Shown: piece by piece, positions 5,124 through 22,263 of the stretch
Layout of the letters: each line of letters starts with the position of its first letter
Numbering within the stretch: the first letter of the stretch is position 1
NCBI GenBank assembly: GCA_938074205.1
Contig: CALJES010000002.1
Location: forward strand, 62,001 to 126,000
Direction: 5' to 3'
Length of the DNA: 64,000 nt
Origin: an uncultured bacterium
GTDB lineage: Bacteria; Armatimonadota; UBA5829
The notes under the pieces: generated by a model
Database searches by the model: none
What the model was told of the DNA's origin: nothing
What the model saw: the letters and a program-made list of their open reading frames with translations, nothing else
Made by a program: the position numbers and the translations under genes

Positions 5124-6536
5124 TTACGCTCCGAATATGCAGGCTCCATCAACCGGCTTTGTGACAAATAACACTTGGTCGCGTTTCGGAGGGGTCGGTA
5201 GCCCGCGTGTGGGCAGAAATCGTTCGTAATAGTCCGTCCAAACTGTGTCGAGAAGATCAGAAGCTTGTTCTTGTCTAACCAGTGCGACTGCGCACCCGCC
5301 AAATCCGGCACCAGTTAGTCGGGCTCCTAGAGCCCCTCGTTGCCGCAATACTTCGACAAGATAATCTAGCTCCGGGCAACTGATTTCGTAATTCTCGGCA
5401 CACGACGAGTGCGATTCGTTCATGAGTTTCCCCAGCGCAGCTGCATCACCGCATTCTGCTGCCAGAGCTGCGCGTTCTACGCGGTCGGCTTCGGTCAGAA
5501 CGTGTAAGCAACGCTTTTTGGGATGGAATCCGTCTTTAGGTTCGGGTAATAGGCTTCCGTCACGCAAAGTTAAGCAGCGCCGCCTAAGTTCATCTTCCGC
5601 AACTCCGACGATGGAAGCCACCTGCGACACTGTAAGTGGATCTTCGGGCAAGGAATCTAGAGCTTCTAGCCAGTTTGGTTCGAGCGATACATAGTCTCGA
5701 AGCAAGGCTACTTCAGAAACTCGCGGATTTCGATGACTGGAAGCGTGCTTCAATAACTCAAGTCCCAGCCGGCACTCGGTAACACGGGTGTTGAAAGCTA
5801 TCCTCGCGGTCCCCGTCTTGCTGGCTGTGACCATACTGTTGGCCACTGCAATCAAACAACCACCGGGAAGCGATACCGGCCGAACGCGCAAAGGAAAAAA
5901 GTCAATCTTTAGGGCACTGCCAGCCTGCCCCATAAGCGAGACAGCCTGGTCCATTCCTCCGCCTTCCGTGCCTACGTAACGCTCGCCCTTGGCAAGAAGT
6001 TCCGCTAGCTCAACGCGGTCGATATTAAGGTCGCGACCAAACACCAGCGCTGAGGCTACAACAACCGCTGAACTACTCGAAAGGCCTGCCCCGGGCGGGA
6101 TGTTACCCCCTATACACCCCTTAATACCAGAAAGTGGTAGTTTGTCGGGGCAATTTAGGGACGCCCAGTTCCAAGTAGCTTGCGCTGCTGCCTTGATGTA
6201 GTTTCCCCAATGCCCAGTCTCGAATTTGGGAATGCTGCCTGACAGCATGAAAACTGCCTTGGGATATATCGGATCCAAAGCAACCACTTCTACTGTTGGA
6301 GAGTCGACGGGAGAGAATGCGAACACTATCTCGCGATCAATAGCCATGGGCATGACCGGCAACCCATTGTAGTCAGTGTGCTCACCGATTATGTTGACGC
6401 GACCCGGTGCTCGAACCACTCCCACCTGCCGGCATTCTGGAAATTTTCGCCGGAACTTTCGAAGAACGGCTAGAAAGAGGCCGTCACTACCAGCTGCGAG
6501 CAATCGTTTCTCCATTTCCTCTATAGGAAGAAGCAT
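5124..6536 (-). CDS. galK: GHMP kinase: galactokinase / N-acetylgalactosamine kinase (GALK2-like)
   Basis: A 470-residue GHMP sugar kinase, longer than E. coli GalK (382). It has the galactokinase signature GRVNIIGEHTDYN, the ATP loop PPGAGLSSSSA, and the C-terminal LTGAGFGGCAVAL. The active-site region reads GTEGGGMDQ (bases 5941-5977), as in eukaryotic GALK2, yeast Gal1 and plant galactokinases; typical bacterial GalK has a CGIMDQ-type motif. The NTRVTECRLG segment and an extra helical insertion near residues 300-350 also match GALK2. It likely phosphorylates galactose or GalNAc at C1. The ATG at 6536 is preferred over a GTG at 6551 because GGGAG lies 8 nt upstream. It is last in the operon with the nucleotidyltransferase and C26 genes. 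Confidence 0.88.
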   Translation of the reverse strand: MLLPIEEMEKRLLAAGSDGLFLAVLRKFRRKFPECRQVGVVRAPGRVNIIGEHTDYNGLPVMPMAIDREIVFAFSPVDSPTVEVVALDPIYPKAVFMLSGSIPKFETGHWGNYIKAAAQATWNWASLNCPDKLPLSGIKGCIGGNIPPGAGLSSSSAVVVASALVFGRDLNIDRVELAELLAKGERYVGTEGGGMDQAVSLMGQAGSALKIDFFPLRVRPVSLPGGCLIAVANSMVTASKTGTARIAFNTRVTECRLGLELLKHASSHRNPRVSEVALLRDYVSLEPNWLEALDSLPEDPLTVSQVASIVGVAEDELRRRCLTLRDGSLLPEPKDGFHPKKRCLHVLTEADRVERAALAAECGDAAALGKLMNESHSSCAENYEISCPELDYLVEVLRQRGALGARLTGAGFGGCAVALVRQEQASDLLDTVWTDYYERFLPTRGLPTPPKRDQVLFVTKPVDGACIFGA

Positions 6537-6598
6537 CTTTCGATCTCCCACACATTCGAATCAATGATTCAGATTAGGAAAAAATCAGTTTTGGATAG

Positions 6599-7516
6599 TC
6601 AGTTCCACAACGGGCTCGGGTACACACCTCGCCTTACCAAATCAGCGATGGCAGCTTCCACCAACGAACGATCCTCTCGGTAAGTTATTCCAAACCACTT
6701 TTCCTCAGTATGCAACACCTTCACCCTCGCTTTGCCCTTTTTGACTAGGTTGCCTACCACGTCAGGCAGATAAAACTCTGCTTTTTCCAGGTTGACCGAA
6801 CAATTGCTCAAGAAAAATTTGAATTGTGACTCCAGTTCTTCTAATATGCTGGGTGTGAAACCCCAGGCGTTCATGGAAACAATGGTATTAGGATCAAGCG
6901 TAACCTTTTGTCCCTTTTCATCAGTGTACGCTGCACCATCGTCGAATTTTTCAATGCCGGTGCGTTCGCGAACATCTAGGAGGTACCCGTCCGGACTCAC
7001 CACGCATATCCCGCGAGACACAGGGCCGCTGGGTGACAGTGTGTTTGCCAATGTGTAGCCGACCATGCAGTAATTGTGCACGCCATTTATGTCCTCAGCG
7101 CCGCGAAGGTAACTTGCTAGGGCATCAAAAGCGCCAGGTCCGTAGAAATCGTCAGCGTTGATGACCGCGAGGGGTCCGTTTACGGCATTTCTGCAGCAAA
7201 GCACTGCGTGGCCAGTTCCCCACGGTTTCTTTCGATTGGCGGGAACACTTAAACCCTCCGGTAAGTAGTCAAGTTCTTGAATAACATAGTTCAGCCTTAT
7301 TCGCTTGCTTGCGGTAGACTCGTATCTTTCCTGTAACGCTTCTTTGAGATTACGGTTTACCACCAATACGATGCTGCCAAATCCGGATCTTGCGGCATCG
7401 TAGATGGAGTAATCCAAGATGAATTCGCCATTCGGTCCTACAGGATCGACCTGTTTGAATCCGCCGTATCGGCTTCCTAAGCCGGCAGCAAGAATGACGA
7501 GACTGGGCGAGCTCAT
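6599..7516 (-). CDS. Sugar-1-phosphate nucleotidyltransferase
   Basis: A 305-residue NTP-transferase (GT-A fold) with the N-terminal nucleotide loop LAAGLGSRYGGFKQ and the metal-binding N-A-D-D-F-Y strand near residue 120. Enzymes of this type join NTP and a sugar 1-phosphate to give NDP-sugar and pyrophosphate. It overlaps the upstream C26 gene by 4 bp and is followed 62 bp later by the GALK2-like kinase. The pair would make a sugar 1-phosphate and activate it directly, a uridylyltransferase-independent route to UDP-Gal or UDP-GalNAc. The sugar and nucleotide specificity are inferred only from this context. Confidence 0.85.
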   Translation of the reverse strand: MSSPSLVILAAGLGSRYGGFKQVDPVGPNGEFILDYSIYDAARSGFGSIVLVVNRNLKEALQERYESTASKRIRLNYVIQELDYLPEGLSVPANRKKPWGTGHAVLCCRNAVNGPLAVINADDFYGPGAFDALASYLRGAEDINGVHNYCMVGYTLANTLSPSGPVSRGICVVSPDGYLLDVRERTGIEKFDDGAAYTDEKGQKVTLDPNTIVSMNAWGFTPSILEELESQFKFFLSNCSVNLEKAEFYLPDVVGNLVKKGKARVKVLHTEEKWFGITYREDRSLVEAAIADLVRRGVYPSPLWN

Positions 7517-8289
7517 AGCTGTTTTCTCCTGCTCATTTGTTGTCTGGATGCTTCAACGAAAACTTCAAAGAGCGAGTTGGACAGGTCGTAGATATAGGAG
7601 TCTTGCTGACGTTCAGGATGCCACTGAACTCCAACTATAAAGCGCGAATCCTGGACCTCAATAGCTTCCACTAAGCCATCCGGAGCGAGTGCCGTGGCTT
7701 TGAAACCGCGTGGAACCATTTCGGGTACCAGTCCTTGATGGTGCCTTGAGTTCACGACGAGACTAGTTCGGCCGTAAGCTTTCTGAACAACGCTTCCAGG
7801 CGCGAGTAACACTTCGTGGTATGCACTTACGCCGGCTTCTGAGGCGCGATGTTCCAGGGCGCCTGGAACGCACTTTTTTATGTCGGGTATGAGTTTTCCT
7901 GCCAGAACTATGTTCAGTAACTGAATACCGCGACAAATGGCAAGAATAGGCAGGCCTATCTCTATGGCGTGCTTGGCGATGGGAAGCTCGTATTCGTCCC
8001 GTTCAGGTTCACATTGCAAGCCATACACTTGGATGACGTCTTCCGCACTGAGATGCTCGTCGCCTGGCAGCCTGTTGTAATGGTTCGGATGAACATCCCA
8101 TCCACCGGATAATAGTACGCCGTCACAGGTCGCGATTTGAAAGGGCAAATGGCAGTTGAGAGGAACACAAACTGCTCCGAGACGCTCCAGCGGAAGCGCG
8201 TAGGAATTGTAATAATCTCCTCCTATGTTCCACTGGGGATGCGTACCCGTTGTAATGCCTATAACAGGCTTATCGCGTGATTCAAACAT
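7513..8289 (-). CDS. Class I glutamine amidotransferase-like hydrolase (peptidase C26, PuuD-like)
   Basis: A 258-residue protein of the C26 family, which includes gamma-glutamyl-GABA hydrolase PuuD. It contains G-V-L-L-S-G-G-W-D (the oxyanion strand), nucleophile Cys119 in AICRG, N-S-R-H-H-Q, and the catalytic His/Glu in QWHPE. The ATG at 8289 is chosen because homology starts at KPVIGIT; an upstream extension to 8379 looks non-coding. The ribosome site is weak (GAAAG). It is the first gene of the operon with the nucleotidyltransferase and the GALK2-like kinase. Its role there is unclear: it could release an amide-linked sugar or amine, or deglutamylate a conjugate. Confidence 0.85.
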   Translation of the reverse strand: MFESRDKPVIGITTGTHPQWNIGGDYYNSYALPLERLGAVCVPLNCHLPFQIATCDGVLLSGGWDVHPNHYNRLPGDEHLSAEDVIQVYGLQCEPERDEYELPIAKHAIEIGLPILAICRGIQLLNIVLAGKLIPDIKKCVPGALEHRASEAGVSAYHEVLLAPGSVVQKAYGRTSLVVNSRHHQGLVPEMVPRGFKATALAPDGLVEAIEVQDSRFIVGVQWHPERQQDSYIYDLSNSLFEVFVEASRQQMSRRKQL

Positions 8290-8302
8290 CACTTTCTGCG
8301 TT

Positions 8303-8332
8303 ATTCTACTTATAAGCCGACATACTTGCCAA
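8303..8332 (-). promoter_or_regulatory. Possible promoter of the C26-nucleotidyltransferase-kinase operon
   Basis: On the minus strand TTGGCA (8327-8332) and TAGAAT (8303-8308) are separated by 18 nt. The predicted transcript would start almost at the ATG at 8289, leaving little leader, which fits the weak ribosome site but also makes the call uncertain. Confidence 0.3.
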
Positions 8333-8413
8333 TAGAAACTTGCTACCACGACAGCTGCTGAGCAAAGCCTAGGAACCAAACTTTTGCACGGGCGTATCTG
8401 CTGAAAAGGGCCA

Positions 8414-8512: not shown

Positions 8513-9391
8513 CTATTGCTTACTACTGGCAAGCTCCGGCCAGTACTTCAAGATCAGGTCGCGAGTTTTCTTTACTCCTTCGATCTGATCTTCTGGTCCC
8601 TCGTATTCTATTGAGACAGCATACTTGTAATTCGCATTCTTCAGAATCTGTAGTAGACGCTTGTAATCCTTGTTCGCGTCTTCTCCTTGCGCGTTAAAGG
8701 TATGCGTCTTCGCGTGTACGTGGTATGCGTAAGGTGCCAACTTTTCACACTCGGTGTACCTGATGTCATCTGGCCAGTTTCCGAAGTCTAAGCACGCTCC
8801 GACCCACTCTGGATCGGTCGATTTTATGATTCTGAGAATAGTATCTGCTTTCTTACTCACGCCGCCGTGGTTTTCTATGGTCATCTTTACGTTGAGTTCC
8901 TTTGCCAGCGGGAGTAGTCTTTTGAAAGCGGCGATCACGCGGTCAGCCCCGACAGTATCGTCTTGTGCCTCGTCCCCTAAGCCACCCAGGTTAAGTCTGA
9001 CAATTGGTGCTCCCAGGTAGGCGGCGGCTCGCATCTTGGTTTCATTTGTTGCAATCTGCTGGTTCCAAGCTTGGTCGTCTAGGGTTGCCATGTTTCCCTC
9101 GCAAATAAGGCCTGTGATCTTGACACCTGCCTTTGCACATGCCTGCTTAATTTGGTCCAGGTAGGGCGCATCGTACGACTTCATCCAGATGTCGTTGAAC
9201 GCAACGCCGGCAATGCCCAGTTCTTTCAGCTTTGCGGGGATTGTCAAATAATCGAGTTTGCCTTCGCTCAGATAGGTCCGAAGGCTGTAAGTGTCGCAAG
9301 AAAGTATCGGTTTTCTTTTCTCCGGTTCCTTTCCGTTTGGCTGAGCGTTCAAGACCGTCAGCATAGCAAGACCTAGCGCAACAGAGTTCAT
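8513..9391 (-). CDS. Exported sugar phosphate isomerase/epimerase-like TIM-barrel protein
   Basis: A 292-residue protein of the xylose-isomerase-like TIM-barrel (AP endonuclease 2) superfamily. The N-terminus MNSVALGLAMLTVLNAQ looks like a signal peptide, so the protein probably acts in the periplasm. Metal-ligand candidates lie in T-I-E-N-H-G-G, A-C-L-D-F-G-N-W, H-V-H-A-K and S-I-E-Y-E-G. The ATG at 9391 is chosen for its GGAGGA site and the signal peptide; an upstream extension to 9451 is unlikely. It is the last gene of the nikR-led operon, 38 bp after the Nramp-like carrier. It probably isomerises or epimerises a sugar or keto-sugar handled by the Gfo/Idh enzyme of the same operon. Confidence 0.82.
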   Translation of the reverse strand: MNSVALGLAMLTVLNAQPNGKEPEKRKPILSCDTYSLRTYLSEGKLDYLTIPAKLKELGIAGVAFNDIWMKSYDAPYLDQIKQACAKAGVKITGLICEGNMATLDDQAWNQQIATNETKMRAAAYLGAPIVRLNLGGLGDEAQDDTVGADRVIAAFKRLLPLAKELNVKMTIENHGGVSKKADTILRIIKSTDPEWVGACLDFGNWPDDIRYTECEKLAPYAYHVHAKTHTFNAQGEDANKDYKRLLQILKNANYKYAVSIEYEGPEDQIEGVKKTRDLILKYWPELASSKQ

Positions 9392-9429
9392 TTTGTCCTC
9401 CACGAAAATCTTATTCGAATTCTTAAGAG

Positions 9430-10686
9430 CTAGCCATTTATCTTCGACCATACATAGTTAACGGCTGCTACTATCGTGACAGCAATTGCACCGCACATCG
9501 GTATTAAGGCCCAACGACCTCCTGGAAAGGGGGCCGCTTTGGGTCTTGAGATATCTTTGGCGAAGAGTAGAACAAAACCAACATAGGCTATTGGCAATAA
9601 CGTCAGACAAGCTGCCGACGTGACAACCGGCAACCAAACTGGCAACGGATATGCGACCCCCAAGGCTCCCACTGCTGGGATCAGGGTGCCAATGCGCCAC
9701 ACGGGACCGTAATGCTCTTTTCCAGTCATTTCGCTCAGGATGAAGCCACTAGTAAGCATATGCAGTGTTATGGTGCTTAGAGGCATTGCCAGCAGCCCCA
9801 GCAGAAACAGCAACGGACCTACCTTGGAGCCAAATACCGGCGTAAATACGTGTGCGAGCTGCACGACCTTGCTTCGGTCAATTTCCGTGCCGTACAATGT
9901 AGCAGCAGACGCTATTGTGAGAGCGCCAGTGGCCACAACAAACGGCACGAACATGCCAACTACCAAGTCCTTCAGTGCAAAACGAACATCGTCGGCTTTC
10001 CATCCTTTGGATCGAACAGAATAAGGGTAAAGGAAAGTCATGTTTATCCCGACAGCCGCGCCGAGAAGACCGTACACAAACAAGCGTCCATCGTAAGACG
10101 CAGGGACGTGAAAGCCAGCTACTCCGCGTCCTACGGTCTTCCAGTTGATGGGAAGTCTTACCATGAGGATCAGCAGGCATACGACCGTTATCCACACGAG
10201 CAGCTTGAGCATAGATTCATACACCAAAAGACCTGTTCCGCGTCGGTATTGCCAGGTCAGAAGGATAGAGCAAAGCAAGACCGCGCCGGCAACGATCGCG
10301 CGGGATAGGTTCGATGTCTCGAATCCTACCAGCTCTCGCGAAATAGCATAAACCATAGCGTATTGGGGAAAGTGCCATATCACGCTTGCTAGCAGTGAAC
10401 CGATACTCCACGCGTAAGCCAAAATCGGCGTTAGTTCAACCTTGAAGCGCTCGAATGGAGATCTATTACTGGACAACGCAGAATACGCGGCCCCCGACAG
10501 AACGACTACACCTATCAGCATCGCAAGAGGATTTACCCAAAGCAGTTGGTAGCCATATTGATTCCCTGCTAGAATCGATGTTATTGCCGTACCAGAGCCC
10601 AGAGTGTAAGCTGAAAGAAGCCATCCAGGACCGCCTCGCCTTGCACGTTCTGCAATCTTCGCGACAAAACTGGACGGCGAGCTCAT
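9430..10686 (-). CDS. Nramp-related membrane transporter lacking canonical metal-binding motifs
   Basis: A 418-residue protein with about 11 hydrophobic segments. The N-terminal region GPGWLLSAYTLGSGTAI and the following A-G-N-Q-Y-G-Y segment align with TM1 of Nramp carriers. The metal-binding DPGN motif is replaced by GSGT. TM6, normally carrying M-P-H, reads G-A-A-V-G-I-N-M-T-F. The known metal ligands (Asp, Asn, Met) are therefore not evident, as in the non-canonical Nramp-related clades. The ATG at 10686 overlaps the SMP-30 stop as ATGA and follows GGAGG; a TTG two codons upstream is possible. It may carry an organic solute or another cation. Family assignment is good; substrate is unknown. 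Confidence 0.72.
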   Translation of the reverse strand: MSSPSSFVAKIAERARRGGPGWLLSAYTLGSGTAITSILAGNQYGYQLLWVNPLAMLIGVVVLSGAAYSALSSNRSPFERFKVELTPILAYAWSIGSLLASVIWHFPQYAMVYAISRELVGFETSNLSRAIVAGAVLLCSILLTWQYRRGTGLLVYESMLKLLVWITVVCLLILMVRLPINWKTVGRGVAGFHVPASYDGRLFVYGLLGAAVGINMTFLYPYSVRSKGWKADDVRFALKDLVVGMFVPFVVATGALTIASAATLYGTEIDRSKVVQLAHVFTPVFGSKVGPLLFLLGLLAMPLSTITLHMLTSGFILSEMTGKEHYGPVWRIGTLIPAVGALGVAYPLPVWLPVVTSAACLTLLPIAYVGFVLLFAKDISRPKAAPFPGGRWALIPMCGAIAVTIVAAVNYVWSKING

Positions 10687-11576
10687 CTGCAAAGCTTGCC
10701 TCCGACGTCAAGTCTTACTTTGTATATGCTTGTCCGAGCAGTTATGTAAAGTGTTTTTCCATCTTCGTCTCCCCAAGCAAGATTCGCTGGCACTTCGGGA
10801 GTCTTGATTAGGTCTATTTGTTTGCCTGCACTGTCGAAGATCCAAACCCCGCCCGGACCGGCCACGTAAAGATTGCCGTTGACGTCCACTTTCATTCCGT
10901 CGGGACCTCCAGGACCCGATGTCTTGGCGAAGATACGGCTGTTGATGAGCTTGCCGTCCGGAGTCACGTCGAAAACTCGGATATGTGCCAGCTCAGATGA
11001 ATCTGCCACATACAGTTGTTTCTCATCGGGGGAAAAACAGAGCCCGTTCGGCATCTTGAAGTCGTCGACTAGGAGTTCAAGCTGTCCTTCAGGCCGAATT
11101 CGGTAAACTCCCTGAAAGCCCAGCTCCTGGTCATCTTTCTTGATGCCGTACGTCGGATCTGTGAAGTATATTGAACCGTCCGACTTGACCACTACATCGT
11201 TGGGACTATTCAATCGCTTGCCCTGGTATCGCTCGGCGAGAACGACTATTGTGCCGTCTTTTTCCGTTCGCGTTACCCTCCTAGTTGAATGCTCGCACGC
11301 AATCAAACGCCCTTGCTTGTCGAACGTCAAGCCGTTCGAGTTTCCACTTGGTTCTCGGTAGACCTTCAAACGACCGTTATCTGCGAGCTCGTATATCCGG
11401 TTTGCTGGGATGTCGCTGAACAAAAGTGTGTTCCAAGGTGTCCAAACTGGTCCTTCGGTAAATTGCAAGTTTCCTACGACCTTTTCCACCTTCTTATTTT
11501 GCTCAGGCATAGCTATTGATCCCCCAATCAGGCAAAAGCTGGCAATCAAGCAACCTATTTTAAACACTTTTTCCAT
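10683..11576 (-). CDS. Secreted SMP-30/gluconolactonase-like beta-propeller hydrolase
   Basis: A 297-residue SMP-30/gluconolactonase/LRE family protein. The start KVFKIGCLIASFCLIGGSIA is a signal peptide (possible lipid attachment at an early Cys is not clear). The propeller shows E-G-P-V-W (metal-binding Glu), L-N-S-P-N-D-V, Y-F-T-D-P-T-Y, M-P-N-G-L and G-P-D-G-M-K-V-D. Family members open sugar lactones using a divalent metal. The ATG at 11576 follows a TTGGAGA site. It lies 31 bp after the deleted Gfo/Idh gene. Next to sugar oxidoreductases, the natural reading is that it hydrolyses the lactone formed when a periplasmic aldose is oxidised. Confidence 0.88.
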   Translation of the reverse strand: MEKVFKIGCLIASFCLIGGSIAMPEQNKKVEKVVGNLQFTEGPVWTPWNTLLFSDIPANRIYELADNGRLKVYREPSGNSNGLTFDKQGRLIACEHSTRRVTRTEKDGTIVVLAERYQGKRLNSPNDVVVKSDGSIYFTDPTYGIKKDDQELGFQGVYRIRPEGQLELLVDDFKMPNGLCFSPDEKQLYVADSSELAHIRVFDVTPDGKLINSRIFAKTSGPGGPDGMKVDVNGNLYVAGPGGVWIFDSAGKQIDLIKTPEVPANLAWGDEDGKTLYITARTSIYKVRLDVGGKLCR

Positions 11577-11607
11577 TGGCGAGTCTCCAATCTTGGATAG
11601 CTCCGTG

Positions 11608-12066
11608 TTATGCAGGCACAATCCTTCGCTCATCACGTATATACTTCATTCTGCGCCCTGACAGGAGCGCCTGGTAGCCCATTATACAGGCAACTGAATG
11701 GTTGAAGCCTAGTTCTATGGGTGCATTTGGTGTTCGCCCGGTTCGTATGCATTCGATCCAGTTCGCCATGTGGTTCTCATCCTTTTCAGGTTGCACAGGG
11801 ATCAGCTGCGTGATTGCATCGGTTCCTCCTCCGGAACCAGTAAAACTCCAGGTGGACAACACATTAAGTGATTGCGCCAGCTTTACTATCTCCGACAAAT
11901 GATGAAGTCCGCGGCTTCCTGCGCCGATGATTCCTATTCGTAACCGCTCATTGGCACCAACAGCCGAGGACGCACTAAGTCTTGCGCCAGCAAAAGCTGC
12001 TGTACCTGCTATAGACTTGGCGAGAAACTGACGTCGGCTCAACTCGGTTCGTGACAAGGGGCTCAA
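11608..12066 (-). pseudogene. Gfo/Idh/MocA oxidoreductase with large in-frame internal deletion
   Basis: A 152-residue reading frame that joins the two ends of a Tat-exported Gfo/Idh/MocA oxidoreductase. Residues 1-38 are a Tat signal (S-R-R-Q-F-L-A). Residues 40-69 are the start of the Rossmann fold (GIIGAGSRG). Residues 70-152 are the C-terminal end of a full-length protein (GGGTDAITQ, MANWIECIRTG, FNHSVACIMGYQA). About 280 residues expected between, including the catalytic EKP region, are absent, and the junction lies near base 11858. It starts with TTG, overlapping the DUF6807 stop (TTGA). The frame is intact, so a short product may still be made, but oxidoreductase activity is very unlikely. 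Confidence 0.82.
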
Positions 12067-12995
12067 TCCTTCCTGTTGTAAGCATTAAACAATCGGAAAA
12101 GCGTAATGTCGTCGGTCTTGCCTTTGTGCACAAATAGCCGGTACTTAAGCGTCAGAGGTTTGCCGACCTCTATAGTATAACCTTCCGGCAAGGTAGAACC
12201 TAGTGCAGGGTTCAGCAATCCGTAAAACCGCAAAGTCCAACCGTTAGGAAAGTGCGGATTCGAACGGTTCTCCAATATTGCGATGCCGTCCCAGGTGTCG
12301 TTGCTTTGAAAACGCCCCGAAAGATCAGCCCACGCGATCCGATAACGATCAGCGTCCTTTTGAATAACTCCTTTGGAAGTGACGATACTGGTGTCTCTGC
12401 GAGGGGCAAAACGCAATGTGAATCCGCCGTAACCAGTGTCCGATACTCTCAGGTTCACTGGGGTATCGATTGCTGATAAAGTGATCTCTAAGTCGATGAA
12501 TCGGCCGATTACCTCCAGCGGGTGCACAGTTATTACCACTTTTTCTCGGATAACCTCTCGTCCACTCGAGTCTTCCTGCCAGAAGTTTTCCACCGCGAGA
12601 ACAGCTTTCCCGTCTGACTCGACGCTAGTTGAATGGCTCCGATAGTGTTGGTGAATATCAACGAGTGACCACAGGTTTCTTGTGGTCCCATTGAACGTTA
12701 CCTTTGACCACATCCAGCTGAGCCCACGATGGTGGTAGTGATCCTGAGGACCGTCGTCAGTAAGAGGAACTCCGTCGATTGAGTAGGTGGGGTGCACATA
12801 CGTACTGCGTCGCATTTTCTCAGGCGCCCCCTGAGGAAGAATTTCACCTCGCACATAGCGAAGTACCGGGGTCTGGCCGTCTAAAACGGTTATGAAGTTG
12901 GCTTCTTCTGAGAACCTCAATGGCGCACTGCAGCAGGGAAAATCTACGGCGAGCAAAGTCGTTGCAAGGAGTGTCAAGGGAAGTAGTATTTTCAT
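12063..12995 (-). CDS. Secreted DUF6807 (PmoA-like) family protein
   Basis: A 310-residue exported protein. MKILLPLTLLATTLLAV is a signal peptide. The D-H-Y-H-H-R-G-L motif near residue 90 is the signature of DUF6807, formerly annotated 'PmoA family' although unrelated to methane monooxygenase. The rest is beta-rich with an F-Y-G-L-L-N-P segment. The family is common in Planctomycetes, Verrucomicrobia and Armatimonadota beside Gfo/Idh oxidoreductases, but its function is undefined. The gene overlaps both neighbours by 4 bp, so it is made in step with the oxidoreductases. The cluster of His residues could bind a metal, which would be relevant to a NikR-led operon; that is inference. Confidence 0.82.
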   Translation of the reverse strand: MKILLPLTLLATTLLAVDFPCCSAPLRFSEEANFITVLDGQTPVLRYVRGEILPQGAPEKMRRSTYVHPTYSIDGVPLTDDGPQDHYHHRGLSWMWSKVTFNGTTRNLWSLVDIHQHYRSHSTSVESDGKAVLAVENFWQEDSSGREVIREKVVITVHPLEVIGRFIDLEITLSAIDTPVNLRVSDTGYGGFTLRFAPRRDTSIVTSKGVIQKDADRYRIAWADLSGRFQSNDTWDGIAILENRSNPHFPNGWTLRFYGLLNPALGSTLPEGYTIEVGKPLTLKYRLFVHKGKTDDITLFRLFNAYNRKD

Positions 12996-14272
12996 ACTTT
13001 ATACACCTCGGATGGAATCGTAACGCGCTCCATTCTGTCCATCGCCTCGTTGGCTTTTATTGCTGCCACACATGCTCCCAATGCTGTCTTACCAGTGCTC
13101 AGAGGTTGAGCGCCTTCGCGCACGCACCGGAAAAAGTCCTCAAGCTCAAGCACAACCGCATCTCTTGTTCGGGCTTGTCCTGGGCTAACTCTCTCACCTT
13201 CGCCTCTCTGTTCTTGTATTCGGGGAGTTTTGGATGCGTCCAGCACTATCGCTTCTTTTCCCTGTACCTTCTCCTTGTGCGCCATATCTTGCCAAGCCAG
13301 TTGTTCAGACTTCGGCTCCCGGAATAGCAACGCTTTCCCAATTTGCAGCACGATCGTGCCTTTGTCGCCCATTATCTGCTCATAACAGCCGTCGTACTGA
13401 TTCGACGTGATCGACTGATACTGAAACTTGACTCCGCTTGGGTACTCGAATATGCACTGTACGTTGTCATAAACCTCCCGTCCGTCTTTCCAATAATCAA
13501 TTCCGCCTACACCCACCACAGCACTGGGCGTTTCTTGGAGCATCCAGTTGACTATATCTATCTGATGGCTACCAAGTTCTGCCATGAGACCTTGTGAATA
13601 GCGCCGATACAACCTCCAGTTTATCAGTTCGTCCAGTTTGGGATCCGGACACGGACGGCGCCAACTTGCGTTTCGATTCCAGTGAGCTCGCACATGTGTA
13701 ATTCGGCCAAGGATTCCATCGCTTATGAGTTTGTAAGCATGTTGGTAGTCCGGATCGTAACGCCTCTGATGCCCGATCTGCAATGTCAAGCCTGTCTGCC
13801 GCGCAACGCGGATCATGTGCTTCGCTTCATCGATGGAGTAAGCCATCATTTTCTCACAGAATACGTGCTTTCCAGCTCGCAGCGCGTCAACTGTCATCCG
13901 CGCATGCAAATGCAGAGGCGTGGCTATCAAGACCGCGTCTATGTCTTTCCGTTCTAGAAGCTGGTAGTAGTCCTTGTAGCCTTTTGCTTCCTTCGCAATT
14001 GAAAGTCCTCTAGCAAGGTTGCTCTCTTGAATGTCACAGCAGGCAACAAACCTAACGTTGGGTATCTTCACGGCTCTTTCCAATAGGAAGCAGCCTTGGT
14101 TCCCCGTTCCGATTATTGCAGCGTTGATAACGTCCTCTTTGCTGAGGGTTTTGCCGGTCGCTTCAGTGAATACGCCGATAGAAGCCAGGCCAGTCAAAGC
14201 AGCGGCTGATCCTACCAGGAACTCACGTCGTGTGACGTCTTTGGTGTGCCGCTTTGGGTTGTCGAGGCTCAT
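12992..14272 (-). CDS. Tat-exported Gfo/Idh/MocA family oxidoreductase
   Basis: A 426-residue NAD(P)-dependent sugar oxidoreductase. The N-terminus carries a twin-arginine signal (T-R-R-E-F-L-V-G) followed by a hydrophobic stretch. The Rossmann motif reads AAIIGTGNQG. The C-E-K-M motif takes the place of the usual E-K-P, and the C-terminal alpha/beta domain includes the MAELGSHQIDIVNW helix. As the enzyme is exported folded, cofactor is probably bound in the cytoplasm before Tat export, as in glucose-fructose oxidoreductase. It is 3 bp after apbE and overlaps DUF6807 by 4 bp. Likely substrate is a sugar or cyclitol; identity unknown. Confidence 0.9.
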   Translation of the reverse strand: MSLDNPKRHTKDVTRREFLVGSAAALTGLASIGVFTEATGKTLSKEDVINAAIIGTGNQGCFLLERAVKIPNVRFVACCDIQESNLARGLSIAKEAKGYKDYYQLLERKDIDAVLIATPLHLHARMTVDALRAGKHVFCEKMMAYSIDEAKHMIRVARQTGLTLQIGHQRRYDPDYQHAYKLISDGILGRITHVRAHWNRNASWRRPCPDPKLDELINWRLYRRYSQGLMAELGSHQIDIVNWMLQETPSAVVGVGGIDYWKDGREVYDNVQCIFEYPSGVKFQYQSITSNQYDGCYEQIMGDKGTIVLQIGKALLFREPKSEQLAWQDMAHKEKVQGKEAIVLDASKTPRIQEQRGEGERVSPGQARTRDAVVLELEDFFRCVREGAQPLSTGKTALGACVAAIKANEAMDRMERVTIPSEVYKV

Positions 14273-14275
14273 TAC

Positions 14276-15223
14276 CTATCCTCCCACATGACAGAGTTTG
14301 TACTCTCCCGCTTGCTCTTCCACTAGTATTGCTTCGACTTCTTCGTGGGAAAGACAGTATCGAGAGGTAAATGCCTTTCCGCCAAGATAGAACGCAGTCG
14401 AAAGTGCGTCGGCGATAGCCGGATCTGACGTCAAAGCGGATGCAGAGACCAACTCCGTCCGCGCCGGTTCGCACTTTGAAGGATCAATTATGTGGTCGTA
14501 TAACTCGTAGACGCTTGTGTCACGTTGGCGAGGTCCGCCGGATGTCGATAATGCTCGTTCCTGAAGCTCGACTACGGCCAATCGATCGTCTGCTTGCTGG
14601 GGGTGGCGGATACCGATCTGCCAAGGACGGCCATCAGGCTGCGGACCTAGCGCATAGACGGTGCTGTCTCCACTGGACACAAGACCGCATGATATGCCGT
14701 ATTCGGCAATGATTTGGGCGGCTCGTCTAACAGCATAGCCTTTGCCGATTGCACCGAGGTTTATCAAAAGACCTTCACGAATGATTCGGACGGAATTCCT
14801 TGCGGAATCCAGTTCTAGGAAGTGGGAGCTGGTTCTTGCAACAGTCTCTCGGATTGCGCGAGCATCGGGCACCGACCTAAGTTTTTCTGCAGACCTCCAT
14901 AGGTTTACAGCGGCACCAACAGTAACATCGAAGATCCCACCAGTCTCCTCAAAGAGCGCTTTGGCTAACTGTAATATTTCAAACAGTTCAGGCGATACAA
15001 TTACCTCGCGCACGTGCGCCCACGCATTGACATACGATAGCTCGCTCGTAGGGTCAAAACAATTGAACTTCTTTTCCAGCCGCGATATCTCTTCAAAAGC
15101 AGCTTCTGCAACTTGGCGCGCGTAGTATTCGTTCGCGTTGGCGAGAATAATTCGGAACTTGCAAGCCATAAACTCGCGCGTCATATCTAGTGCGTCGCAG
15201 TAGTTTGCGGGTCGCATGTCCAT
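14276..15223 (-). CDS. apbE: FAD:protein FMN transferase
   Basis: A 315-residue ApbE-family enzyme that attaches FMN covalently to Ser/Thr of target proteins in the periplasm, using Mg2+ and FAD. The motifs are F-D-V-T-V-G-A near residue 100, N-L-G-A-I-G-K-G-Y-A near residue 175, and S-G-D-S-T. There is no obvious signal peptide from the ATG at 15223, whereas periplasmic ApbE proteins usually have one, so the enzyme may be cytosolic or exported differently. It is second in the operon, 14 bp after nikR. No adjacent protein has a clear flavinylation motif, so its target is unknown; it may modify a respiratory protein that takes electrons from the exported oxidoreductases. Confidence 0.9.
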   Translation of the reverse strand: MDMRPANYCDALDMTREFMACKFRIILANANEYYARQVAEAAFEEISRLEKKFNCFDPTSELSYVNAWAHVREVIVSPELFEILQLAKALFEETGGIFDVTVGAAVNLWRSAEKLRSVPDARAIRETVARTSSHFLELDSARNSVRIIREGLLINLGAIGKGYAVRRAAQIIAEYGISCGLVSSGDSTVYALGPQPDGRPWQIGIRHPQQADDRLAVVELQERALSTSGGPRQRDTSVYELYDHIIDPSKCEPARTELVSASALTSDPAIADALSTAFYLGGKAFTSRYCLSHEEVEAILVEEQAGEYKLCHVGG

Positions 15224-15237
15224 AAAGCATAAAGCTG

Positions 15238-15657
15238 TCAGGTTAACGTGCGTCCGGTAGTCGTGGTTATAAGCTGTCCGTGCTTGACTCCGCGGGTACT
15301 TATTAGTGCATCAGCTATGGATTTCAGAACCGCGCTGTTTCCTTTTGCAATTACCACTTCCAAACAGTTGTGCTCATCCAAATGCACGTGGGTGCTGCAA
15401 ATGATTGCTTCGTGGAATTTGTGCTGTATGTCGATCAAAGCTTCGGCTAGTTCATAGTGATGGTGATCGTATACAACAGTAATCGTGCCAACCACTTCTG
15501 CATTGGGGTCTTGCCATTCTTCCTTGACCAGTTCCTGCCTGATCAAATCACGGATAGCTTCCGAGCGAGACTTATAGCCGCGGGCCTCAATCATCGAATC
15601 GAAACGAGAGAGCAAATCCGCTTCCATAGACACTCCGAAACGTTCTATTGTGCCCAT
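15238..15657 (-). CDS. nikR: Nickel-responsive transcriptional regulator NikR
   Basis: A 139-residue ribbon-helix-helix regulator. Residues 1-45 form the DNA-binding domain (S-R-S-E-A-I-R-D-L-I). Residues 55-139 form the ACT-like nickel-binding domain. The four nickel ligands of E. coli NikR (His76, His87, His89, Cys95) correspond to His79, His90, His92 and Cys98 here, so nickel sensing should be intact. The ATG at 15657 follows GGAGGA; a longer frame to 15717 lacks homology. It heads an operon that has no recognisable nickel permease or nickel enzyme, which is unusual for NikR. Nickel-dependent autoregulation of the operon is likely. Confidence 0.92.
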   Translation of the reverse strand: MGTIERFGVSMEADLLSRFDSMIEARGYKSRSEAIRDLIRQELVKEEWQDPNAEVVGTITVVYDHHHYELAEALIDIQHKFHEAIICSTHVHLDEHNCLEVVIAKGNSAVLKSIADALISTRGVKHGQLITTTTGRTLT

Positions 15658-15688
15658 TCGCAGATCCTCCGCTGCCAACTTTGCGCCC

Positions 15689-15717
15689 ATCGTAACATTG
15701 AGAGATTGCTGCGTCAA
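15689..15717 (-). promoter_or_regulatory. Sigma-70 promoter of the nikR operon
   Basis: On the minus strand TTGACG (15712-15717) and TACGAT (15689-15694) are separated by 17 nt. The predicted start lies about 25 nt before the nikR ribosome site. It sits back to back with the promoter of the URO-D gene, with 15 bp between the two -35 boxes. Confidence 0.6.
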
Positions 15718-17700: not shown

Positions 17701-17733
17701 TATAAATTGCGCTACCAATCCCAGGAGGGCCCT

Positions 17734-20700
17734 ATGAAGGAAATTCAACACAGGACCAAACGCACGCCTGAGGTCTTGGATCTTCCCAATTTGATCGAAG
17801 TTCAGATCAACTCCTACAAGTGGTTTCTAAAAGAAGGTCTGCGGGAGCTGTTCCGCAGCTTTTCACCTATAACCGATTTTACCGGAAACCTGTCCCTGGA
17901 GTTGGTAGACTACACTCTAGGTGAGCCGAAGTACTCCATGGAGGAATGTCGTTACAGGGACATGACCACCTACGAAGCACAGATAAAGGCTAGGGTGAAG
18001 CTTACCACGGCTAATAACGAGGTTATTGAGTCAGATGTGTACCTCGGAGAGCTTCCCCTGATGACGGAAAGAGGAACATTTATCATCAACGGTGCAGAGA
18101 GGGTGGTCGTAAGCCAGTTAACGCGATCTGCAGGGGTCTATTTCAAGGACACTCTCGACTATTCTGGCAGAGTGCTCTATTATGCCACCATTATTCCAAG
18201 CCCCGGTGCATGGATTGAAATAGAGACTGATGCCTCTGATGTTATATACGTCCACGTCGCGCAAACTAAGAAGTTTCCGCTGACCGTGTTCTTGCGGGCT
18301 CTGAACCAGTTCGAACAAGCTTGTCCGCGCTCTCAAGTGCTTCCCGCGACCGAAGCTATAGGCAAGACTCTCGCCGCCGACTATGTTCATCCGGAAACCG
18401 GCGAAGTGCTATTTGCCAAAGGCACAGTGGTGGACGAAAGAATAGTTCGCAAGTTGCATTCACTGCATCTTGACGAGAGAGTCGAAGTCGAAATGACAGG
18501 TCACCCGTGTGGGACCACTGTCGAGATATTAGAGCTTTTCAGTGAAAAACAAGTCCTGCGAAATTTGGACGCTGACTTAATTAAAGGTAGGCGTCCTACT
18601 GCTGATATTAGGGATCCTAAAACTGAACGCATTATTGTTCGTGCCGGGCACAGAATAAGCGAAGATGCTGCGAAGAAGATAATGAAGATGGGCTTGACCG
18701 AGCTGGAGGTGTTTGTGCCAAATCGCTACATAGAAGCAACGCTCGATCAAGACCCTACTAACACATCCGAAGAAGCCCTGCTTGATATCTATAAGCGCAT
18801 CAGACCAGGAGACCCGGCGACTCGAGAAAGCGCACGCAGCTTAATGGAATCGTATTTCTTCGATCCGAGACGCTATGATCTCGGGAAGGTCGGTCGCTAC
18901 AAGCTCAACAAGAAGCTAGGTTTGAATCTTCCTGAGCACGTCCGAGCGGTTACACGTGAGGACATCATCAAGATCATCCGCTACATAATAGGCTTGTCCG
19001 AATCAGGTGGATTAGTGACACATTTGGATTCGGGCAATTTGCGTAAGCGTCTGCCTGAGCTCGAGGAGGCTTTATTACGTGAGGAACAGCAGGCAACCGC
19101 AGAAGAGAAGGAATATGCAGGACGCGTTTGGAGGTTGCGGAACAGTTTAGAGTTCCTGAAAACTGTTGAGCTTGGTACGATATTTACGGAGACGCAACTT
19201 AAAGACGTAAGGGAATTGTTGAAACTGATTCCAAACGGCACAAGGCTGATTTCGGATTCGCCTGCCGAGCTCTATTCCGAAACCGCTATTCGTCTTACGC
19301 CTTGTGCAACAGATGATATTGACCACCTGGAGAACAAGCGCGTAAGGTCCATTGGCGAGCTGCTTCAAGATCAGCTTCGCATGGGGTTCCTTCGCATGGA
19401 AAAAGTTGCAAAGGAGCGTATGACCAGCCTCGACCCCGAGAACGTTATTCCGCAGGTGGTTCTGTCAGTAAAGCCCATTTCTGCGGCGATCAAGAGCTTC
19501 TTCGGTTCCAGCCAGTTATCTCAGTTTATGGACCAAACGAATCCGCTGGCAGAGCTGACGCATAAGCGCAGGTTGTCGGCATTGGGTCCTGGCGGGTTGT
19601 CAAGACAGAGCGCGAAGCTGGAGGTCCGAGATGTTCACTACTCCCACTATGGCCGCATATGTCCGATTGAGACTCCGGAAGGTCCCAACATCGGACTCAT
19701 AGGCTCTATGGCAACCTATGCGAGGATAGATGAGTACGGCTTCTTGCGGACCCCTTATCGCAAGGTTAAGAACGGCAAGGTTACTGATGAAATAGTTTAC
19801 CTCTCGGCGGATGAAGAAGATCACGAGTACGTTGCTCCTGCCAGTACACCGGTAGACCCTGAGACCGGTGAGATCACGGTGCCGCAGGTTATCGTTCGAC
19901 ACGAAGATACGTACCCGCAGGTCCCGTCGAACAAGGTTACATACATGGATGTTTCGCCAGCGCAGATTATGTCTGTGGCTGCTGCGCTTATACCATTTCT
20001 GGAGAATGACGACGCAAACCGAGCACTTATGGGCTCGAACATGCAGCGGCAGGCTGTACCTTTGATTCGTTCAGAGGCGCCTCTTATTCGGACAGGAGTC
20101 GAAGCGCGCGCGGCCCGGGATTCAGGCACTATCGTGATAGCTAAGAGAGGCGGGACGGTGCGGTCAGTAACCGCGGAAAGAATTCTGATTGAGGCAGAGG
20201 ACGGAACCATCGACGAATATAAATTGGTCAACCTGCTTCGATCCAACCAGGGAACATGCATTACGCAAAAACCGCTTGTGAAAGTTGGAAACCGCATCAA
20301 GGCAGGTCAGGTTATTGCGGATGGTCCGAGTACCGCTCAGGGCATTTTAGCTTTGGGTAAAAACGTCCTCGTTGCGTTCATGCCATGGCACGGCTACAAC
20401 TACGAAGACGCCGTCCTGGTTTCACAGCGCCTGGTGAAGGACGACGTGTATACGTCCATTCATATTGAAAAATACGAGACTGAAGCAAGGGATACCAAAC
20501 TCGGTCCGGAAGAAATCACGCGCGACATACCCAACGTAGGCGAGGATAGTCTTAAGGACCTAGACGAAAACGGCATAGTACGCATTGGTGCGGAGGTCGG
20601 ACCGGAGGACATTTTGGTAGGTAAAGTAGCGCCGAAAGGTCAGAGCGAACTTACGGCTGAAGAGCGTTTGATCATCGCCATATTTGGCAAGAAGGCTGAG

Positions 20701-22263
20701 GAAACACGTGACGTTTCGCTTCGAGTGCCACACGGGGAGGGTGGCACCGTTATCGATGTCAAGGTGTTCTCGAGATTCAAGTTTAAGTGCAAAAAGTGCA
20801 ATCAGGTTTTCAATTTCTCCAAGAAGCCCGACCGGTTGTTGTGTGAGATATGCGAAGGCGAGCTTGAAAGGCTCAACGGGGACGAGCTTCCGGCAGGTGT
20901 AAACCAGCTTGTCAGGGTGTATCTTGCACAGAAGCGTCGGCTGATGGAGGGTGACAAGATGGCAGGCCGGCACGGCAACAAGGGTGTAATCTCAAGGATA
21001 CTGCCGGAGGAAGATATGCCGTTCCTGCCTGATGGCACCCCTGTCGATATAGTGCTCAACCCTTTGGGCGTACCGTCGCGGATGAACATCGGACAGATCC
21101 TCGAAACGCATCAAGGGATGGCTGCTAAGTATCTCGGTTGTGCGTTCCGCAACCCTATCTTCCAGGGTTCAACTGAGGACGAGATTCTGGCAGACCTAAA
21201 GGTTATGGCATGGAAGCTAAGGCTTGGCATCCTCAGAAATTATCTAGCGGAGTTGGGGCTAAATGTAAACGTTCCGGACCAGCGTACGGTTGACAGCGTA
21301 GTGGACCACATCTTGTCACGAATCGGTGACGCTACCAAAGAGGATCTGGACGATGTGGTGCAACCCATAGTAGATCTTTATGATGAAGCAATGCAGAAGG
21401 TTGGCGACCATCTGAGAACGCTGGATGCTGCATCTCTAGAAACACTAAGCATCAAGCTGGCAGGCCCGCCGGTAGTCGACGATCCAATGTCGGTACGTAA
21501 TGCGCTTTCTGAAGCTGCGAGAATCAAGTTAGAAACTCGGATCGCGGCGTTGGAAACTGAGAATCCTAATACCTCGATAGACTTAGATGCGATAAACAAA
21601 CTAGCTGAGGAGAAGGCGAAAAAGTCAATTGCAATACCATATGTGGGAGATCCCGTTCCTCCGGACTATCCCTACGAGGTACTACTGGACGCGATAGATC
21701 GTAATGTTCAAAAGCGTCTTGGTTACAATCCTAATACTGGTAAGTGTACTGTATACGACGGGCGAACGGGACAGAAGTTCAGCCAGGATGTGACGGTTGG
21801 CTACCTCTATATGATGAAGCTGCTCCATCTGGTGGAGGACAAGATACACGCTCGGTCCACCGGTCCGTATTCTCTGGTAACGCAACAACCGTTGGGTGGC
21901 AAGGCCCAGTTTGGCGGTCAGCGTTTCGGCGAAATGGAAGTTTGGGCATTGGAAGCTTATGGAGCTGCCTACACACTCCAAGAAATGCTGACCATCAAGT
22001 CGGACGACGTCCAAGGTCGTGTGAAGACTTATGAGTCTATTGTCAAGGGCGAGAATATTCAGGAACCGGGGATACCGGAATCGTTCAAGATCTTGGTCAA
22101 CGAGCTTCAGAGCCTGTGTTTGAAGGTCACTGTAGAAGACGATCGCGACCACGTGATTGATCTCAAAGACACTGAGGACGAATTCGGTGATTCAGGGGAG
22201 GGCGTGATAAGCGCCAAGCGCCGCAGGATCGCTCGAGAACTAAGGGAGGACTACAATGGCTGA
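17734..22263 (+). CDS. rpoB: DNA-directed RNA polymerase subunit beta
   Basis: The 1509-residue beta subunit of RNA polymerase. The ATG at 17734 follows AGGAGG. The rifampicin region reads [20 protein letters not shown] and then [11 protein letters not shown], with all common rifampicin contact residues present. The following segment, RERAG(F/L)E in most bacteria, reads RQSAKLE here. The catalytic-centre [12 protein letters not shown], the flap and the C-terminal [15 protein letters not shown] motif are conserved. Two extra segments of the beta lineage-specific insert type lie at about residues 190-330, carrying repeats like V-H-P-E-T-G-E. It overlaps rpoC by 8 bp. Confidence 0.98.

Follow-up and report, generated by a model that had tools for sequence, protein, structure and literature searches.

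A carrier of the Nramp family in which every metal ligand of the canonical Nramps is replaced was found on the minus strand (9430–10686) of the window, the 64,000-nucleotide stretch of DNA analysed here. A new, conserved pocket takes the place of the metal site, the carrier and its relatives form a separate clade, and genes for sugar oxidoreductases are enriched beside them. Because the metal ligands are lost, the new pocket is fixed and sugar oxidoreductases adjoin, the substrate is probably organic and sugar-derived. On balance, the carrier is more likely to import a small solute of this kind than a metal, with uptake as the presumed direction.

The open reading frame extends from 9430 to 10692 and, from the ATG at 10686, encodes a protein of 418 amino acids with a predicted LeuT fold. 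It matched the Pfam family Nramp (PF01566) with an E-value of 6e-27 and 95.0 bits (gathering cut-off 29.8); the NCBIfam MntH/Nramp models matched only under their cut-offs. Both in alignments with the solved Nramps and in the family alignment, the D-P-G-N of DraNramp falls on G30-S31-G32-T33 (codons at 10588–10599, minus strand) in the helix break of TM1, and A-T-V-M-P-H falls on A210-A211-V212-G213-I214-N215, the codons for G213-I214-N215-M216 at the MPH position of TM6 lying at 10039–10050 on the minus strand. According to the family alignment, H105-F-P-Q108 in TM3 (10363–10374, minus strand) covers the DraNramp positions D131, replaced by H105, and E134, replaced by Q108, with Y220 at the position of H237 and, in TM10, S357 at that of Q378. 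The original prediction had read GSGT for DPGN in TM1, which is borne out by the alignment with DraNramp and the other solved Nramps, and G-I-N-M-T in TM6, which is exact. Its statement that the canonical ligands are not evident also holds, all of them being replaced in the alignment.

Relatives of the carrier were collected from 84,980 species genomes, scanned with the patterns GPG..(Q/L)SA.T and (I/V)(I/V)W(H/C)FPQY. Out of 319 loci with carrier relatives, 80 were kept, belonging to the Armatimonadota, Planctomycetota, Verrucomicrobiota including Kiritimatiellales, Acidobacteriota, Victivallales and a few others, and with the carrier of the window these make up a set of 81 sequences. G30, G32, G213, N215 and M216 are invariant in this set (81/81), residue 31 is A, S or G and residue 33 is S or T, which gives a pocket pattern of G-[SAG]-G-[ST] in TM1 and G-x-N-M in TM6. 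All of these positions lie outside the scan patterns and their conservation is therefore not ascertained by the search. Q108 is present in 81/81 sequences as well, and H105 in 70/81 (Q, C or S in the rest), the conservation of T28 and Q108 being partly ascertained, as the scan patterns covered both, Q108 by way of WHFPQY. Neither an acidic residue at any metal-site position nor a methionine ligand of the metal site was found in the 81 sequences. Restoration of a normal metal site by other residues, which the original prediction had named as the outcome that would speak against it, was rejected: E157, D240 and E319 are conserved, and as aligned none of them appears to stand at a metal-site position.

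Within the class, represented by 28 genomes, the gene was found only in this genome and in one congener (the sister genome), with 86% identity, and the phylum adds about ten more. Comparison with the sister gene gave a dN of 0.09, with dS saturated, and as far as such a comparison can tell the gene is under purifying selection. Few parts of the protein are as strongly conserved in the alignment as the pocket. A decaying metal transporter was ruled out, since a pocket that is invariant in 81 sequences and a low dN are not expected where the motifs are lost by decay.

An AlphaFold2 model of the carrier, built with 44 sequences, reached a pLDDT of 89.1 and a pTM of 0.88. In the model, TM1 consists of a helix from residue 21 to 28, a break at 29–30, at the GSG, and a helix from 31 to 44, and TM6 is broken at V212-G213; both helices are thus predicted to be discontinuous, as the PF01566 fold demands. 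When solved structures were ranked against the model with VIA-align, DraNramp was the best match (Z 43.6, rmsd 2.6, 382 aligned residues), ahead of EleNRMT (Z 42.0, rmsd 2.5, 378 aligned) and the integrative model of YcsG (Z 38.9, rmsd 5.0, 394 aligned). This comparison with DraNramp and NRMT, one of the checks proposed beforehand, agrees with a predicted Nramp fold for the carrier. After the Nramps came Asc1 (Z 28.6, rmsd 3.8, 382 aligned), AdiC (Z 28.6, rmsd 3.6, 366 aligned), the auxin carrier LAX3 (Z 27.1, rmsd 4.1, 369 aligned) and LAT1 (Z 25.8, rmsd 3.6, 374 aligned), with AUX1 also in the range of Z 25.8–28.6.

The APC amino-acid carriers AdiC, LAT1, Asc1 and xCT share the superfamily fold with the carrier and have a G-[S/A]-G in the TM1 break, but their structural scores are far below those of the Nramps, identity is about 10% and the TM6 pocket is another one. 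Residues 30–32 of the carrier were placed on 55–57 of Asc1 (G55-S56-G57), 25–27 of AdiC (S26) and 65–67 of LAT1 (S66), as read from the range starts with no gaps assumed, other rows (apo Asc1, AdiC 3ob6) being 1–3 residues off. In a second model, of a relative of the GAG type (L053), the GAG was placed on Asc1 55–57 in the same register, again as read from range starts. In Asc1, binding of the substrate carboxylate is predicted for the amides of the motif; in AdiC the carboxylate is bound by the glycine that follows the serine, and xCT has GAG (PMC10998858, PMC5877779). To some extent, the modelled TM1 triplet therefore resembles the carboxylate-binding GSG of APC carriers, at about the same place.

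A maximum-likelihood tree was made of 57 proteins, comprising 37 clade members, 13 canonical MntH, two NRMT-like proteins, three PxpT proteins from pxp operons and two other Nramp-related proteins. The carrier clade was monophyletic with an UFBoot of 100 and stood apart from MntH, NRMT and PxpT, so that the phylogeny suggested with the original prediction also came out with the clade as a separate one; the deep order among the non-clade groups is less certain (support 57–96). With the canonical Nramp/MntH proteins (SLC11; DraNramp, ScaDMT, EcoDMT) the carrier shares PF01566, the fold and the places of the TM1 and TM6 breaks. It differs from them in its separate clade, in an identity of about 20%, and in the replacement of D, P and N of DPGN, of M, P and H in TM6, and of E134, D131, H237 and Q378. 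The clade reads GxG[ST] for DPGN in 81/81 sequences, the A/CxxM plus MPH of TM6 is AAVGIN in the carrier, with G213 and N215 in 81/81, and the acidic proton-path residues of TM3 are not conserved in the clade, with His or Q/C/S at D131 and Gln at E134. According to Ray, Berry and Gaudet (2026; PMC12873925), Nramp-related proteins are a paraphyletic set without DPGN, MPH and proton path, and their groups are called entirely uncharacterised, save the NRMT-like group and that of Bacillus subtilis MntG. Proteins without these motifs have thus already been described, as uncharacterised groups, and the carrier, a PF01566 protein without DPGN, MPH and TM3 proton-path residues, fits the description as given there.

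Among solved structures, EleNRMT was the best profile match of the carrier (E 3e-13), and NRMTs are likewise without the TM6 methionine. They retain, however, the aspartate of TM1 in a DxxG-TxxA/T signature, and mutating this aspartate strongly compromises transport (PMC8806188), whereas the carrier clade has GxG[ST]-AxxG, with Gly at the Asp position in 81/81 sequences. In the tree, the clade did not group with the NRMT-like sequences (UFBoot 100), of which only two were sampled. This genome encodes just one further PF01566 protein, L001 on contig C10, with an NRMT-type site (DAAG ... TTIT), so that a magnesium-type, NRMT-like carrier is already present. Canonical MntH was not found in this genome, and manganese uptake may use another system.

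PxpT of Corynebacterium glutamicum, an Nramp-family protein, is needed for growth on 5-oxoproline (PMC13274462), and its homologue YcsG (MntG) is needed for 5-oxoproline use and also reported as a manganese importer that raises cellular Mn (PMC10448178). Pfam places PxpT in PF01566. Like the carrier, PxpT/YcsG is without the TM1 aspartate, has Gly at the position of the TM6 methionine (VGGY, against VGIN in the carrier) and adjoins genes for an organic substrate, but it stands on a long branch of its own, separate from the carrier clade, has a different TM1 and TM3 and gives no significant profile match (hhalign probability 0.3% with one PxpT). Because of this missing match, PxpT can serve only as an analogy for the clade. 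For the Nramp fold as such, an organic substrate has a genetic precedent, disputed in one case, that of YcsG. No PxpB-family protein (pxpABC) was found in this genome and, when PxpT was sought in the same phylum by way of PxpB, none was present in the loci read; PxpT was found on plasmids instead. A sequence search of the PDB with a PxpT protein gave no match.

The carrier belongs to a minus-strand run that reads, from its head, NikR-type regulator, ApbE, Gfo/Idh/MocA, DUF6807, Gfo/Idh remnant, SGL, carrier and TIM barrel. Immediately upstream, and overlapping the carrier start by 4 bp, lies an SMP-30/gluconolactonase-like (SGL) gene (10683–11636, Pfam E 6e-55) with a likely signal peptide, found at the same place in the sister genome. 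Downstream lies a xylose-isomerase-like TIM barrel (AP_endonuc_2, 8513–9451, E 1e-29), also with a likely signal peptide and a likely true start near 9391, which adjoins the carrier in other lineages too. Further upstream are a DUF6807 protein (12063–12995, E 1.5e-45) and a Gfo/Idh/MocA oxidoreductase (12992–14272, E 6e-21) with a twin-arginine (RR) motif near its N-terminus, to which inositol 2-dehydrogenase and glycoside 3-dehydrogenase come closest among the NCBIfam models, though below their cut-offs. A second Gfo/Idh/MocA gene (11608–12066) is a remnant. Its residues 1–69 and 83–152 match the two ends of the intact 412-residue Gfo/Idh in the sister genome, where the run has otherwise the same genes, a large in-frame internal deletion having removed most of the middle. 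The neighbour chemistry may take place outside the cytoplasm, given the likely signal peptides of SGL and TIM barrel and the twin-arginine motif of Gfo/Idh, all read from the sequence.

The run is headed by an ApbE-like FAD:protein FMN transferase (14276–15223, E 1e-62), kept in the sister genome, and the NikR-type regulator (15238–15717, NikR_C E 3e-31), of which the link to the carrier is uncertain. NikR occurs in 16 of the 28 genomes of the class. A nickel link through NikR was rejected, its pairing with ApbE being limited to this genome and the sister. The GATase, nucleotidyltransferase and GalK genes at 5124–8379 were left out of the unit, because they are not syntenic in the sister genome. 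The original prediction that all neighbours act on sugars stands for most of the genes, with ApbE, the NikR-type regulator and a class-I glutamine amidotransferase as nearby exceptions. Promoter and terminator scans performed no better than on shuffled sequence.

Across the clade, Gfo/Idh proteins made up 25 of the 264 genes at most two places from the carrier, compared with 6 of the 274 genes further away (p 2e-4). After dereplication, Gfo/Idh accounted for 8 and AP_endonuc_2 for 4 of the 58 direct neighbours, and neither was seen more than once among 58 genes further off. A Gfo/Idh or TIM barrel was located within 1.5 kb at 19 of the 80 clade loci and at 1 of 26 other, mostly canonical Nramp loci (p 0.017); this single-round count was preferred, as the iterated TIM-barrel profile drifted to an FMN-oxidoreductase-like group. 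The p-values are optimistic, the loci being related by descent, and these phyla are in any case rich in genes for Gfo/Idh proteins and TIM barrels. When sequences were grouped at 65% identity, 9 of the 24 lineage groups had one of the two at most two genes from the carrier, and the neighbours vary. A uronate (glucuronate) isomerase accompanies the carrier in a Kiritimatiellales operon (L075), DUF993 is present at eight clade loci, and in an Acidobacteriota group (L077) ABC-transporter genes lie downstream of the carrier, the scanned partners including a Peripla_BP_4 protein. Upstream of the carrier, some loci share a conserved protein of about 470 amino acids with no Pfam match (L109:4998-6407, L113:4982-6412 and relatives), mostly with DUF993 downstream. 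The neighbouring Gfo/Idh proteins of the clade resemble inositol and glycoside dehydrogenases, though under every cut-off, and for this reason the proposed substrate class is kept broad.

In the proposed mechanism, the protein would be a secondary carrier of Nramp fold that no longer handles metals. Glycines, Ser/Thr and the invariant Asn would take the place of the metal ligands in the broken TM1 and TM6, and the pocket would become wider and uncharged, its backbone NH and CO groups being free as they are in the APC amino-acid carriers. The neighbouring and probably exported Gfo/Idh/MocA, TIM barrel and SGL lactonase would release a sugar-derived solute outside the cytoplasm, and the carrier would import it, presumably by a rocking-bundle movement, as a sugar acid, keto-sugar or cyclitol. 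An aldonic acid may be one candidate; the neighbours would suit keto-sugars, cyclitols and uronates equally. It is possible, if somewhat doubtful, that the whole branch in Armatimonadota, Planctomycetota, Verrucomicrobiota and Acidobacteriota is dedicated to the import of sugar-derived acids or keto-sugars produced outside the cytoplasm, with a carboxylate- or hydroxyl-binding Gly-x-Gly-Ser/Thr pocket at the metal position.

The original prediction had left the choice between an organic product and a hydrated cation, as in the Nramp-related magnesium carriers. Its organic half is favoured, by way of the lost ligands, the fixed Gly/Asn pocket, the likeness to GSG, the recurrence of sugar oxidoreductases in several phyla and the precedent of PxpT. 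A divalent-cation carrier with a rebuilt site would hold the cation, hydrated or not, by backbone oxygens, Asn, Thr and Gln, and might supply metal-dependent sugar enzymes. In its favour, DraNramp and EleNRMT have the closest folds, the run begins with a NikR-type regulator both here and in the sister genome, and loss of the motifs is compatible with metal transport, since YcsG/MntG, whose group likewise has neither DPGN nor MPH, reportedly raises cellular Mn (PMC10448178). The hydrated cation is nevertheless a weak idea, because NRMTs need their TM1 aspartate (PMC8806188) and the 81 clade sequences have no acid at such positions; the genome has its separate NRMT-like gene, and NikR stands beside ApbE in only two genomes. 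A cation substrate is accordingly considered unlikely.

Import of an amino acid or another small carboxylate outside any sugar pathway, with incidental sugar neighbours, would agree with the GSG/GAG triplets of AdiC, LAT1 and xCT, with PxpT and its 5-oxoproline, and with the D-aminopeptidase or aminotransferase gene that adjoins some relatives. However, no recurring amino-acid gene was found beside the clade carriers, where Gfo/Idh and TIM barrel are enriched instead, and a quarter of the 81 sequences carry GGG in place of GSG or GAG, which leaves this explanation a low probability as well. Loss of all known ligands and proton-path residues would also be expected of a sensor or scaffold with a kept fold, or of a transport-dead paralogue, but the strongly conserved pocket, the two retained helix breaks and the purifying selection make such a role very improbable. 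Import of a sugar-derived solute is thus the preferred reading.

The family annotation, divalent metal cation transporter, is probably mistaken for this clade. No paper tying the clade to sugars was found in the open-access literature. If sugar-derived solutes are moved, a carrier can be named for the oxidative sugar pathways of little-studied phyla. Together with PxpT, the clade would then make two lineages that use the Nramp fold for an organic solute. It would also be relevant to the question of whether the fold acquired metal transport as a derived trait, as is suggested by Nramp-related proteins being paraphyletic (PMC12873925).

Two further Nramp-related types were observed, one in an Armatimonadota locus (L026) with LGAGD in TM1 and AGSLAN in TM6, the other, with AAGPAT in TM1, encoded on a haloarchaeal plasmid after a phytanoyl-CoA dioxygenase gene (L130). 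Elsewhere in the window, the plus strand at 17707–22263 encodes an RNA polymerase beta subunit of 1518 amino acids, in which widely spaced Pfam matches suggest lineage-specific insertions.
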